A DNA stretch of 64,000 nt from Waterburya agarophytonicola KI4 (GTDB lineage Bacteria > Cyanobacteriota > Cyanobacteriia > Cyanobacteriales > Xenococcaceae): NCBI RefSeq assembly GCF_020640915.1, contig NZ_JADWDC010000008.1, positions 1 to 64,000 of the forward strand, given 5' to 3'. Below the pieces are notes generated by a model. That model was not told where the DNA came from. It searched no databases and saw nothing but the letters and a program-made list of their open reading frames with translations. Positions 5,842 through 10,003 of the stretch are shown in pieces (position 1 is the first letter of the stretch; each line of letters opens with the position of its first letter). Made by a program: the position numbers and the translations under genes.

Positions 5842-6046
5842 AAGCTTAAAAATATAATAAATGTAGCAAGAGCGATCTACAACAACAGATTCTTATAGTT
5901 AAAGTCTAATCTACCACAAATGACTTTTTTGATTGGGGATAGCTCAACGATAAGCATAAACTCGATGTCGATCAGCTTTGTTGGGATTTACTAACAACTT
6001 TTACAACTTACCTAAATCTTTAACTATTTATTAATCATACATTTTA

Positions 6047-6499
6047 TCAATCATAAATTCTTGCTTCTAAGGCACTGGGATTGTCTTCGCAATATAGTTC
6101 AAACTCACTTTTAGGCTTTTCAACAAAATCACTTTTGTTAAGAATGTCGCTAATAGAAATAACGCCTAATAATTGACCTTTAACTACAGGAGCGCGACGA
6201 ATGCGAGTATTGGCAAACAAACGAGCTACATATTCAACTCCTAAATCGGGGTTAACTGTAATGCAGGGTTTGGTCATGATTTCGTACACCCGCATTTTTT
6301 TGGGGTCGTGTCCGAATGCTGCTATCTTGTAGACAATATCGGTTTCGGTCACTATTCCATAGGGATCGCCATCGCTTCTACGCTCTACAATCAAAGCTCG
6401 CAAACCTTGATCCTTCATAATTTTCACGGCTTCTGCGACCGTTGAAGAGCCGCTAATGGTAACAACATCTTTGGTCATTATTTCTTGAGCTTGCATCAT
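6047..6499 (-). CDS. CBS-pair protein with decayed CP12 tail
   Basis: A 150-residue protein with two CBS motifs (about 7-60 and 72-125). Residues 45-105 are identical to the neighbour at 6549-7163. The C-terminal segment ELYCEDNPSALEARIYD aligns with the last part of that neighbour's CP12 tail, but about 50 residues of CP12 are missing and the last redox cysteine is replaced by Ala146, leaving Cys137 unpaired. CBS pairs bind adenosine nucleotides. Without the CP12 core it should not form the GAPDH-PRK bridge through disulfides. It is probably a tandem duplicate that has lost the CP12 function or competes for CBS oligomerisation. The start has two adjacent Met codons. Confidence 0.88.
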   Translation of the reverse strand: MMQAQEIMTKDVVTISGSSTVAEAVKIMKDQGLRALIVERRSDGDPYGIVTETDIVYKIAAFGHDPKKMRVYEIMTKPCITVNPDLGVEYVARLFANTRIRRAPVVKGQLLGVISISDILNKSDFVEKPKSEFELYCEDNPSALEARIYD

Positions 6500-6548
6500 C
6501 TTGATATCTTCTTCAATTACAATTTCGTTAGATTAAACACGATCGAAA

Positions 6549-7163
6549 CTAGTCTTCATAAATCCGACATTCTCTAGCATCGGGATTTTCAGCGCAATAT
6601 GCTTCTAAAGAACTAGGTTTTTTTTCAGACTGACGTTTATCCGCAGCAGCGGCCTGTAATTCTTCTACTTCATCCCAAGCAGCAGCACATTCAGGGGAGG
6701 TTGCACCCTTCGCAGCGCAGACAGCACGAGCCTCCTCTCTGGCTACATCTAATCTGTCTTCAATATATAACTGCTTGGGTTTTTCGACGAAATCGCCTTT
6801 TTTGAGGATGTCACTGACAGAGATAATTCCCTGTAATTTGCCTTCAATCACGGGAGCGCGACGAATGCGAGTATTGGCAAACAAACGAGCTACATATTCA
6901 ACTCCTAAATCGGGATTGACTGTGATGCAGGGTTTGGTCATGATTTCGTATACCCGCATTTTTTTGGGGTCGTGTCCGAATGCTGCTATTTTGTAGACAA
7001 TATCGGTTTCGGTCACGATTCCATAGGGATCGCTATCGCTACGGCGGTCTACAACCAAAGCTCGCAAACCTTTGTCTTTCATTATTTTTACGGCTTCTGC
7101 TACCGTTGCCGAACCACTAATTGTAATTACATTAGGGGTCATAATATCTTTGGCTAACAGCAT
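6549..7163 (-). CDS. CBS-CP12 fusion protein
   Basis: A 204-residue fusion of a CBS pair (about 7-125) and a CP12 tail (about 138-204). CP12 is the intrinsically disordered, redox-switched linker that binds GAPDH and phosphoribulokinase in the dark and turns down the Calvin cycle. All four redox cysteines are present: Cys149 and Cys159 in the first pair, Cys190 and Cys199 in the second. The core AAWDEVEELQA and the GAPDH-binding end ENPDARECRIYED are intact. CBS-CP12 fusions are known from cyanobacteria and are thought to add adenylate sensing. The gene is followed by its truncated paralog 49 bases downstream, so the two are probably co-transcribed. Confidence 0.93.
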   Translation of the reverse strand: MLLAKDIMTPNVITISGSATVAEAVKIMKDKGLRALVVDRRSDSDPYGIVTETDIVYKIAAFGHDPKKMRVYEIMTKPCITVNPDLGVEYVARLFANTRIRRAPVIEGKLQGIISVSDILKKGDFVEKPKQLYIEDRLDVAREEARAVCAAKGATSPECAAAWDEVEELQAAAADKRQSEKKPSSLEAYCAENPDARECRIYED

Positions 7164-7233
7164 TTATTGGAATCTCCTGAAAATTTAGATAAAATTGGCT
7201 AACTAAGGTTAAATTTGACTATATGCTCTATTT

Positions 7234-7524
7234 CTATGCGGATCGCCTTATAGACCAAGAAATTGCCGATCCGACTCTAGGGGAAATCGAAGGATGGTCG
7301 TCGATTGGTTGTTTTCTGGCAATGACTGATGTGGTAGAAGAGTGAGCGTCAAGTACTTTGCCACTCACAGAACAGGTAACTAATAAATAGTCACAACTAG
7401 GGCATTCTGTTGCCATAGTTTCGTCGATCGCACCCTCGCTTTTTGGTTCGACTCTCCTTTTGAGGTGGCTACGTATTGCCAAGTGTCCGCAATCAGGGCA
7501 TCGGACAGTATAAGTTCGATTCAT
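7234..7524 (-). CDS. Small zinc-ribbon protein
   Basis: A 96-residue protein. Two CxxC knuckles, CPDCG near residue 9 and CPSCD near residue 42, form a likely zinc ribbon, with a further Cys in VTCSVSGKV. The tail after about residue 60 is polar and probably flexible. A shorter relative lies at 30455-30652, sharing the pattern RCPxCGxxAxRS, ECxSCDYLL and SGKVLDA. Automatic annotation often calls such cyanobacterial proteins replication restart helicase PriA, from zinc-ribbon resemblance, but there is no helicase domain here. Function unknown; nucleic-acid or protein binding is a guess. Confidence 0.72.
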   Translation of the reverse strand: MNRTYTVRCPDCGHLAIRSHLKRRVEPKSEGAIDETMATECPSCDYLLVTCSVSGKVLDAHSSTTSVIARKQPIDDHPSISPRVGSAISWSIRRSA

Positions 7525-7612
7525 AACTGGATTTTTTCGACAAATTTATCGATCTAAAGAAATAGAGACAATTGCTACAATTCTGACAGTATCTCTAATA
7601 GGCTGACAAACT

Positions 7613-7948
7613 TTAAAGTCTGATTTGAGTTTCCAAAATATTGCTGTAGATTTCGTAAGGTTGCGAACCAAAAAGATTTTCGATCACTTCTCCATCTCTA
7701 AATACCATTACAGCGGGAATGCTCCTAATGCCATACTTTTTGGCGGAGTCGCGATTTTCATCGATATCCACTTTGACTACCGTAGAGCGATCGCCGTATT
7801 CTGTAGCTAGGCGATCCATTAGGGGCGCGACTACTTTACAAGGACCACACCAAGTTGCCGTATAGTCTACTAAGACTAGTTTGTTATTAGCGATTAATTC
7901 TTCTAATTGCTCGGAGTTAATAAAGTTTGCTTTGGTCGTAGAAGTCAT
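7613..7948 (-). CDS. trxA: Thioredoxin
   Basis: A 111-residue classical thioredoxin. The active site WCGPC occupies residues 33-37, the buried Asp precedes it in VLVDYTATW, and the cis-Pro occurs in IRSIPAVMVF. It reduces protein disulfides in the cytosol using electrons from thioredoxin reductases; in cyanobacteria, thioredoxins also activate Calvin-cycle enzymes in the light and release CP12 complexes. It lies 62 bases from the ferredoxin gene on the same strand and close to the CBS-CP12 gene, an apt neighbourhood for light-dependent redox control. Which thioredoxin subtype (m, x, y) it is cannot be decided by eye. Confidence 0.93.
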   Translation of the reverse strand: MTSTTKANFINSEQLEELIANNKLVLVDYTATWCGPCKVVAPLMDRLATEYGDRSTVVKVDIDENRDSAKKYGIRSIPAVMVFRDGEVIENLFGSQPYEIYSNILETQIRL

Positions 7949-8010
7949 AAAATTATCCTTTTCTTAAATAGTTTTGGTAGAGGTCTTTGTTATTGTTTTT
8001 AATTATTCGC

Positions 8011-8310
8011 TTAGTAGAGTTCGTCTTCTTGATGAGTCATAATTTTGCAGTCAGAAGTGGGATATGCAACGCAAGTTAAAACAAATCCTTGTTCTAATTG
8101 TTCGTCATCAAGAAATGCTTGATCTGATTGATCTACAGTTCCTTCAAGAATTTTTCCCGCACAACTGGAACAAGAACCTGAACGACAAGAAACAGGTAAC
8201 TCCAGGTCGTTATCTTCGGCAGCATCGAAAATATATTGGTCGTCTGCCACTTCAATAGTTTGATTTAATCCCTCTGCTTCGTTAACTAAAGTTACTTTGT
8301 AAGTTGTCAT
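8011..8310 (-). CDS. petF: Plant-type [2Fe-2S] ferredoxin
   Basis: A 99-residue ferredoxin of standard length. The cluster ligands are Cys42, Cys47, Cys50 and Cys80 in [12 protein letters not shown] and FVLTCVAYP. It carries electrons from photosystem I to ferredoxin-NADP reductase, ferredoxin-thioredoxin reductase and other acceptors in the cytosol. The C-terminus ends HQEDELY, the usual acidic tail with a terminal aromatic residue. The gene is followed on the same strand by thioredoxin. Cyanobacteria have several paralogs; this one has the features of the main photosynthetic type, but I cannot exclude a minor isoform. Confidence 0.93.
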
Positions 8311-8398
8311 AATTTTGATTTTGTTAATTATTGGAAGATAAAACTTTTATTGATAGACTTACGAATACGAGATTCTTTATTTTTCATTCAGTTGTTTT

Positions 8399-8761
8399 AT
8401 GAGCGCGGAAAAATCCAACGCCGAAAATGCAATTTGGCATAAATTAGAACGAGGGAGAAAAGCCAAAGCCGCCCTAGGAGGCTATGCTGGTTACGGTTCT
8501 CCTGCTTTCGGTCAAAAGGCAGTAGATGGAGAACTAGTTACCAATTCTCAAGAACAGGAAATTATTGAATTAATTCGTCGCCATCATAAATCTGGTAAAT
8601 CTCTTCAACAGATTGCTGATTGGTTAAACGGCAATGGTTATAAAACCAAGCGAGGTCAACAATGGCGTAGAATATCCATTAAGCGCGTTTTAGACCGTCT
8701 TTATGGCAAAACCGACCACACTAGTGACATCCCTCAATCCCCCTCGAACGGAACAACCTAA
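8399..8761 (+). CDS. Recombinase-domain protein without resolvase catalytic domain
   Basis: A 120-residue protein resembling the middle Recombinase domain of large serine recombinases: AGYGSPAFGQ near 35, then the helical block EIIELIRRHHKSGKSLQQIA and WLNGNGYKTKRGQQWRRISIKRVL. The catalytic serine domain and the zinc-ribbon/coiled-coil end of a full recombinase are absent. The ATG start and clean length suggest a stand-alone small protein, as seen in other cyanobacteria, rather than a fresh truncation. It may act as a DNA-binding protein. No att-like repeats or integrase partners were seen nearby. Confidence 0.7.
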   Translation: MSAEKSNAENAIWHKLERGRKAKAALGGYAGYGSPAFGQKAVDGELVTNSQEQEIIELIRRHHKSGKSLQQIADWLNGNGYKTKRGQQWRRISIKRVLDRLYGKTDHTSDIPQSPSNGTT

Positions 8762-9016: not shown

Positions 9017-10003
9017 ATGGAATCTAATAACCACCTTGATTTTGCTTCTCCAGACTTAGAAACAGCGATAGATCGAGAACCTTTAATCGTTACTCCAGAT
9101 ATTTCTTTGGTACAGGCGATCGCTCTTATGGGTCGAGCGGTTGGAGTTAGTTGTGGGATGGGAGACAAAAGTGCAGAATTAGATTTTTCTCACTCTCAAA
9201 AAAGTCGTTCTGGATGCGTCTTAGTCATGGAAGAGTCTAAGCTATTAGGCATTTTGACAGAGCGAGATATCGTTAAGTTGACCGCCCGAGAATTAAGTTT
9301 TGAAGATGTAACAGTGGCAGAAGTAATGACTCGCCCAGTAGTTATTCTTTCAAAGAGTAACTTTAAAGATATATTTGCAGCTTTGTTTTTGTTCCGACGC
9401 TATCGCATTCGCCATTTGCCCCTCGTTGACGAGTCAAATTGCCTACTGGGAGTAATTTCTCCAGGAACGATCCGCCAAGCAATGCGACCAGCAAATTTGC
9501 TCAAATTAAGGCGGGTAGCTGATGTAATGAGTAAAAATGTCATCCACGCACCTATCAATGCCACAGTACTGGATATCGCGCGGTTAATGACAGAAAATAG
9601 AGTTAGTTGTATTGTGATTGTGGAAGTAGACGAAGCCGAAAATATTCTGATTCCCGTAGGAATTATTACCGAAAGAGATATTTTACAGTTTAAGTTTTTG
9701 CAAGCCAGATTAGATAACTTGGAAGCAGGACAAGTAATGAGTACACCTTTGTTTTTACTCAGCCCTGAAGATTCTTTATTAATGGCAAATCAAGAAATGC
9801 AGCGTCGTAAAGTAAGACGTTTGGTTGTTTCTTGGAATTGGGGACAAGGTTTGGGAATTGTAACTCAAACTAGTATTTTGCGGATTTTCGATCCGATGGA
9901 AATGTATGGTGTCATCGAAACTTTGCAAAGTACGGTGCAACAGTTAGAAAGAGAAAAAGCGGAATTATTGGCTTTGGTCGAGCAAAAAGAAATTGAAAGA
10001 TAG
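9017..10003 (+). CDS. Protein with four CBS motifs
   Basis: A 328-residue soluble protein with two CBS pairs in a row: motifs start near residues 22, 105 (VAEVMTRPVVIL), 170 (VADVMSKNVIHA) and 240 (AGQVMSTPLFLL). The C-terminal 30 residues form a coiled coil (TLQSTVQQLEREKAELLALVEQ). In many cyanobacterial signalling proteins such CBS arrays are followed by PAS, GAF or kinase domains joined by the same kind of coiled coil. Here the gene ends right after it, so it is either a stand-alone sensor module or a protein that lost its output domain. It likely binds adenine nucleotides. It is in the same direction as the CHAT gene downstream, 118 bases away. Confidence 0.85.
   Translation: MESNNHLDFASPDLETAIDREPLIVTPDISLVQAIALMGRAVGVSCGMGDKSAELDFSHSQKSRSGCVLVMEESKLLGILTERDIVKLTARELSFEDVTVAEVMTRPVVILSKSNFKDIFAALFLFRRYRIRHLPLVDESNCLLGVISPGTIRQAMRPANLLKLRRVADVMSKNVIHAPINATVLDIARLMTENRVSCIVIVEVDEAENILIPVGIITERDILQFKFLQARLDNLEAGQVMSTPLFLLSPEDSLLMANQEMQRRKVRRLVVSWNWGQGLGIVTQTSILRIFDPMEMYGVIETLQSTVQQLEREKAELLALVEQKEIER

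Follow-up and report, generated by a model that had tools for sequence, protein, structure and literature searches.

Comparison of sequences indicates that the short gene of the tandem CBS-CP12 pair at 6047-7163 of the window (the whole stretch of 64,000 nucleotides from Waterburya agarophytonicola KI4 that was analysed) is an old paralogue under selection with a conserved tail of its own, and that its near-identical middle is the result of partial gene conversion with the long gene, the C-flank clearly and the N-flank barely following gene type. The explanation that we consider best, and hold tentatively, with somewhat less than even confidence, is a joint one, in which the short protein is an old, selected CBS-CP12 paralogue that would serve as a redox-blind, adenylate-sensing partner subunit tuning the long protein.

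The gene pair and its surroundings

The features of the locus are as follows.

6047..6499, minus strand: short CBS-CP12 gene, 150 aa; two CBS domains, then a CP12-like end of about 21 residues
6050..6112, minus strand: conserved tail of the short protein, KSEFELYCEDNPSALEARIYD, with Ala at the position of the last Cys in canonical CP12
6185..6367, minus strand: codons 45-105 of the short gene, homogenised with the long gene
6500..6548, no strand: intergenic gap between the short and long genes, 49 bp
6549..7163, minus strand: long CBS-CP12 gene, 204 aa; complete four-Cys CP12; upstream of the short gene
6555..6764, minus strand: CP12 domain of the long protein
6849..7031, minus strand: codons 45-105 of the long gene, homogenised with the short gene
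7234..7524, minus strand: small zinc-ribbon-like protein, a recurrent neighbour, 96 aa; Pfam matches only below cut-off
7613..7948, minus strand: thioredoxin (WCGPC), above the TIGR01068 cut-off
8011..8310, minus strand: plant-type [2Fe-2S] ferredoxin, above the TIGR02008 cut-off
8399..8761, plus strand: Recombinase-domain protein, divergent and recurrent, 120 aa; PF07508 its sole domain match
9017..10003, plus strand: protein with four CBS stretches, divergent and recurrent

Both open reading frames described in the initial annotation were confirmed at these positions, on the same (minus) strand and 49 bp apart, and the short gene is an open, unbroken frame. Pfam recognised two PF00571 CBS stretches at the N-terminus of each protein, followed in the long protein by a full CP12 (positions 1-70 of 70, 98.5 bits) and in the short protein by a CP12 match covering only positions 47-70 of 70 (30.5 bits against a cut-off of 22.7). 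The CP12 cysteines of the long protein are residues 149, 159, 190 and 199, and both AWDEVEELQ and the CxxxPxxxxC end are present; the tail of the short protein has C137 and A146, that is, CxxxPxxxxA, and the N-terminal CP12 Cys pair and AWD_VEEL core are absent from it and from all 31 aligned short proteins. The initial account of the cysteines (four in the long protein, Ala146 in the short one) was thus accurate, but its statement that the short protein had lost residues was not borne out in that wording, as comparison marks the short tail as old and conserved and not as freshly lost from the neighbouring gene. We found no terminator-like site in 5900-8450, which is weak evidence since shuffles averaged 1.8, and the long and short genes of the window likely share one transcript; gaps of 31-78 bp between the paired genes in 14 of the 15 pairs of the window's family (L075 left out) suggest co-expression. 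The genome also carries a free CP12, an 85-codon open frame on a different contig.

The ferredoxin, thioredoxin and zinc-ribbon set (7234-8310) lies directly upstream of the CBS-CP12 genes, and the same genes are found in many short-bearing loci; the zinc-ribbon-like protein (7234..7524) had no NCBIfam match. Where at least 2 kb of upstream sequence was available, a thioredoxin, zinc-ribbon or divergent Recombinase-domain gene accompanied 39 of 41 distinct short-bearing loci, versus 2 of the 45 at which a full-length CBS-CP12 lacking the last Cys stands alone, a comparison for which three loci were reassigned by hand and 11 long proteins that fit no rule went uncounted; lone four-Cys CBS-CP12 loci had the same neighbours in 16 of 22 cases. 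CBS-CP12 appears to come in two kinds, one at the redox locus, usually four-Cys or N-only (ending after the AWD_VEEL core, without the C-terminal CP12 half), and one at other sites, mostly with Ala in place of the last Cys. A four-Cys CBS-CP12 group whose C-terminal stretch beyond the final Cys differs was also observed (L213, L218, L211, L259 and L229), and no thioredoxin-locus genes were seen near its members. The Recombinase-domain protein at 8399-8761 recurs beside the locus across distant cyanobacteria and, as so recurrent a neighbour, is probably not a mobile element here.

Age, constraint and partial conversion of the short gene

Comparison of orthologous loci points to a short form that is old and has its own conserved tail, the outcome that the initial annotation had itself named as counting against its reading. 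Among the 27 genomes of the window's family, searched with PF02672 and read as DNA, the same long-plus-short arrangement recurs, with 15 intact adjacent pairs in 14 of the 27; counterparts are found in Pleurocapsales LEGE 10410, Pleurocapsa, Xenococcus PCC 7305, Hyella patelloides and Xenococcaceae bins. With a 40-column short-tail profile, the tail was detected in at least 27 of 388 genomes of the class, at least 20 of them at E ≤3.1e-24 and at least 7 more, with the full tail, at 3.4e-17 to 1.7e-11; among those 27 genomes listed, a long CBS-CP12 was nearby in 20 and not in 7. Carriers outside the family include Calothrix parasitica NIES-267, Symploca, Mastigocoleus, Richelia, Zarconia navalis, Adonisia turfae, Leptolyngbya PCC 7375 and Oscillatoria CS-180. 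This spread contradicts the recent duplication put forward in the initial annotation. It refutes, in particular, the recency of a duplicated and decayed copy acting as a dominant-negative subunit, a rival explanation that we regard as very improbable: the middle is indeed near-identical within the genome and the PRK-facing half is absent from the short protein, but the tail is conserved and constrained, short genes without a long partner exist, and most tails of a separate CBS-CP12 class likewise have Ala at the position of the last Cys (36 of 48 aligned, in an early and partly wrong sorting).

In 14 of the 15 short genes of the family (L050, whose tail differs, was left out), constraint is strongest in the tail, initially described as collapsed, with a pN/pS of 0.07 over its last 17 aligned codons versus 0.14 in the CBS part. 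Tail pS in this sample was 0.70, close to saturation; the N-half of the long gene's CP12 had a pN/pS of 0.17. With the frame open and these ratios, the short gene does not look like a decayed copy, and recent pseudogenisation was ruled out by the pair common to relatives, the conserved tail and pN/pS. Residues F133, P141, R147 and Y149 are invariant in the 31 aligned short proteins, none of which has a second tail Cys (0/31), its place being mostly taken by Ala; the short proteins of L270 and L265, outside that alignment, have a Cys elsewhere near the end. As the first tail Cys is retained in just 24 of the 31 (two others have Trp or Ile there, and the five of Leptolyngbya type lack it), a lone tail thiol is not essential to the short form. 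In the five Leptolyngbya-type proteins only the last few tail residues are left, with no tail Cys. Such much altered tails, together with the low confidence of the modelled tail (pLDDT 57-65), are consistent with the tail being a vestige and the CBS pair alone mattering, an explanation that seems to us highly doubtful, since tail pN/pS is the lowest of the protein in the 14 family sequences and is still 0.15 in a wide set of 14 genomes across the class. In alignment A1, the L034 row carries upstream residues before the start and the L035 row one such residue.

Two proposals about descent gained no clear support. A single origin of the short form is not backed by the flank trees of the wide set, which reject one clade of short genes (AU p 8.6e-6, 33 pairs; within the family it is not rejected, p 0.2), or by the mixed gene order, the long gene coming first in 22 of 41 pairs and the short gene in 19. 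As to whether the tail descends from the class of CBS-CP12 that lacks the last Cys, mean tail identities to that class and to the four-Cys class (0.58 vs 0.51, from the early, partly wrong protein sorting) were too close to tell the two apart.

In the middle of the window pair, protein identity is complete over residues 45-105, as had been reported, with 8 nucleotide differences, every one synonymous, in the 183 nt that encode them. The two genes have 59 nucleotide differences in 128 codons, 51 of them within codons 1-44 and 106-128, and none of 20,000 codon-order shuffles matched the cleanest observed 61-codon stretch (7 nucleotide differences, from codon 42). We divided 33 of 34 long/short pairs (L060 left out of the codon analysis) into an N-flank (codons 1-44), a core (45-105) and a C-flank (106-128). 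Core third positions of the window's own long and short genes agree at 87%, compared with at most 62% (long) and 61% (short) when either is set against its own type in other genomes, and this free variation of same-core third positions between genomes (61-62%) excludes synonymous constraint as the cause of the clean core. C-flank third positions, by comparison, agree at 43% within the genome versus 65% (long) and 74% (short) with the same type elsewhere, and the N-flank at 77% versus 79% and 81% over all positions, with third positions at 61 within the genome versus 59 and 64 for the same type.

Over all positions, the within-genome pair exceeded both same-type best matches in 15 of the 33 pairs for the core, 5 for the N-flank and 2 for the C-flank, and long and short genes of one genome were joined in 17 of 33 pairs by core trees (SH-aLRT 46-100) and in 4 of 33 by flank trees. 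Core trees of the 33 pairs also reject one clade of short genes (AU p 2.4e-5). Among the 15 family pairs, this same-genome union was seen in 12 for the core, 3 for the N-flank and none for the C-flank, and one clade of short genes was rejected by the core (p 0.004) and not by the C-flank (p 0.61). A fresh whole-gene duplication predicts likeness throughout and an ancient one without exchange predicts none, so that partial conversion accounts for both the like core and the unlike flanks. Gene conversion, which the initial annotation had named beside duplication, is thus supported by the third-position agreement of the window core and by the core trees that pair genes of one genome. It appears to be recurrent and not universal, since in 13 of the 33 pairs the cores of the two genes in one genome resembled each other no more closely than either resembled its best same-type match.

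Long partners and lone short genes

Of the distinct short-bearing loci, 20 have a full-length long partner, 21 an N-only one and 5 (L268, L269, L271, L270 and L058) no adjacent long gene; at the 41 others the long gene lies within 1.6 kb. In three genomes (G391, G362 and G368) the short gene alone fills the slot after the zinc ribbon. No long CBS-CP12 was found in three bins of one genus (G362, G402 and G386, 82-92% complete) or in the Moorena bin G519, and G368, G391, G397 and G345 each carry a divergent CBS-CP12 that is unlinked and shares 48-49% identity with the long protein of the window. A lone short gene is not always kept, as G386 has it with a broken frame and in G414, of the same genus, none was found. 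In Spirulina SIO3F2, an N-only long gene and a short gene lie on separate contigs. The dominant-negative role proposed in the initial annotation is weakened by the five loci without a long neighbour and by the four bins in which no long gene was found.

The closest rival to a tuning partner is that the short protein forms homo-oligomers of its own, senses adenylates independently and docks through its tail to GAPDH or some other enzyme, free of redox control, conversion being a by-product of tandem closeness; both of these readings we infer, and this one we judge rather unlikely. The loci and bins just listed and the purifying selection on the tail argue for it, and are to be set against the 41 distinct short loci that do have a long gene nearby, the 31-78 bp family gaps that suggest co-expression, the short gene that is broken in G386 and was not found in G414, and the unlinked CBS-CP12 of G368, G391, G397 and G345.

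N-only long genes allow a further proposal, to which we assign a low probability, that in many cyanobacteria CP12 is split into two halves on two adjacent genes with a common CBS scaffold. The long protein would then keep the N-half (the Cys pair and AWD_VEEL, facing PRK) and the short protein only the C-half; a mixed CBS oligomer, its middle kept alike by conversion, would reunite the halves, and adenylates, not a covalent link, would decide whether both enzymes are held. Loci of the thioredoxin type comprised 19 with an N-only long gene and a short gene (the short gene being on another contig in one case), 20 with a full-length long gene and a short gene, 4 with an N-only gene alone and 19 with a full-length gene alone (22 minus L268, L269 and L271, reassigned by hand as short), for a Fisher p of 0.016. 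Earlier sorting rules gave the same association (p 0.015, 0.004 and 0.008); controlled for relatedness, it was not significant with the 5 usable pairs of an earlier sorting rule. N-only long genes form part of 3 of the 15 family pairs (L050, L055 and L067), and N-only CBS-CP12 without a detected short tail occurs in G231, G220, G174, G084, G070, G168, G140 and G074, so that the two halves are not strictly coupled. A strict association between N-only and short genes, which we had also considered, therefore held only partly, and split CP12 stays a suggestion because of these N-only genes without a short gene, the modest Fisher p and the relatedness control. Sixteen loci were dropped from the sorting as same-sequence, some of them from different genomes (e.g. 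L238 and L075), and 13 ORFs that fit no rule were left out, namely two broken fragments and 11 full-length long proteins.

Several individual loci were unusual. The Pleurocapsa bin G020 has two complete tandem pairs (L054 with a full-length and L055 with an N-only long gene); either the locus may be truly doubled or the bin may mix two strains. In G520:C189:3540-4151 (L097, Symploca SIO2E9), G340:C5 and G494:C11, similarity to the long protein continues past an in-frame TAA, as if some N-only forms arose by premature stop. In a Halomicronema-like bin, one CBS-CP12 copy is followed by another (L092, 5880-6220) that contains at least two in-frame stops and is decaying. At L046 2016-2468 (G017), an open frame seems to fuse a response-regulator-like part, recognised by eye, to the second CBS and tail of a short protein; it may be a chimeric gene, a remnant or an assembly join.

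A possible tuning subunit of CBS-CP12

The best AlphaFold model of the short protein (from 31 sequences) had a mean pLDDT of 82.9, with 56.7-74.4 for the other four models. It showed the CBS pair intact, and a tail, predicted weakly, in which a single helix spans 131-139 (pLDDT 57-65). The best PDB matches of this model were chains of the hexameric CBS-CP12 structures 5nmu, 5npl and 5nvd, from Microcystis. The CBS pair of the short protein is 65-75% identical to these over the structural alignment and has the same modelled fold, and residues 130-150 align weakly with the CP12 end; in contrast to Microcystis CBS-CP12, the short protein is without approximately residues 142-186 of that chain (the N-terminal Cys pair and AWD_VEEL) and has Ala in place of the last Cys. 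The long protein is a plain member of this family of proteins, with 5nmu as its best PDB match (E 1.5e-95) and a model (mean pLDDT 80.0, pTM 0.52) that adds helices at 130-152 and 157-179.

Classes of CBS-CP12 without one or both Cys pairs have been named CP12-N-CBS and CP12-0-CBS, names that go back to Stanley et al. 2013 and are given in the review PMC3906501. By name alone, the N-only long proteins of 21 short-bearing loci may resemble CP12-N-CBS. The short protein fits the wording for CP12-0-CBS (neither Cys pair) as the class is described in that review, but is without the AWD core in addition, and the short form may already have been classed in Stanley 2013 or Hackenberg 2018. The passages on CBS-CP12 in PMC3906501, PMC9406205, PMC9514657, PMC9623430 and PMC12612862 do not mention the tandem pair, the short form or conversion, nor do PMC9025218 and PMC7281370, where CBS-CP12 appears in reference lists; among the matches listed for literature on tandem genes or gene conversion none mentioned CBS-CP12, which says little. 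In a text search of the literature the term CP12-N-CBS occurred in one paper and CP12-0-CBS in none. Other proteins that bear only the CP12 end are the GapB subunit and Chlamydomonas adenylate kinase 3, as described in PMC9406205, in a passage according to which the CxxxPxxxxC end of CP12 contacts GAPDH; these keep CxxxPxxxxC, whereas in the short protein of the window the motif reads CxxxPxxxxA and is carried by a CBS pair. Microcystis CBS-CP12, in the passages of PMC9406205 and PMC9623430 that treat it, is a hexamer that inhibits PRK with AMP and forms no GAPDH-CP12-PRK complex, in-silico modelling cited in PMC3906501 speaks against GAPDH binding by CBS-CP12, and Synechococcus CBS-CP12 is described in PMC9514657 as having failed to replace free CP12 in Synechocystis. 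Given the missing ternary complex and the modelling, a GAPDH-PRK read-out for the short protein needs care.

Partner-subunit function is the role that we think most likely for the short protein. From what the relevant passages of the CBS-CP12 and CP12 literature report, the short protein would have no PRK control or switchable disulfide and would keep adenylate sensing, oligomerisation and perhaps docking. Its CBS pair would still bind adenylates, and it would still enter the CBS oligomer, along with the long protein where both are made. The conserved tail may still dock GAPDH or another enzyme, in a manner that an intramolecular disulfide could not switch. Mixed oligomers would have fewer PRK-facing, thioredoxin-switched CP12 arms, so that the ratio of long to short protein would set the strength of AMP and redox action on the Calvin cycle; in genomes that no longer have the long gene, the short protein would act alone through its tail. 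Mixing of both proteins in one oligomer would be plausible. Gene conversion does not imply it, since any closely spaced tandem repeats can undergo conversion, and the short genes that stand alone indicate that a partner is not always needed. The partner-subunit reading is favoured by the age and spread of the short form, the constraint on its tail, the converted core, the CBS-CP12 fold of its model, the close spacing of the paired genes and the redox neighbourhood; weighing against it are the 13 pairs in which the core is not closer within the genome, the nearly even N-flank of the window, the Leptolyngbya-type tails, the flank trees, the modelling that speaks against GAPDH binding and the lack of a ternary complex in Microcystis.

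CBS-CP12 is a Calvin-cycle regulator of cyanobacteria that ties the AMP level of the cell to the Calvin cycle, and a tuning subunit, if true, would make this link adjustable. The locus is also a case of gene conversion that mainly affects a single part of two tandem genes and leaves their functional ends distinct. Natural variants of one module (long alone, long and short, N-half and short, and short alone) occur in comparable organisms, and would let the roles of the two CP12 halves be tested singly.
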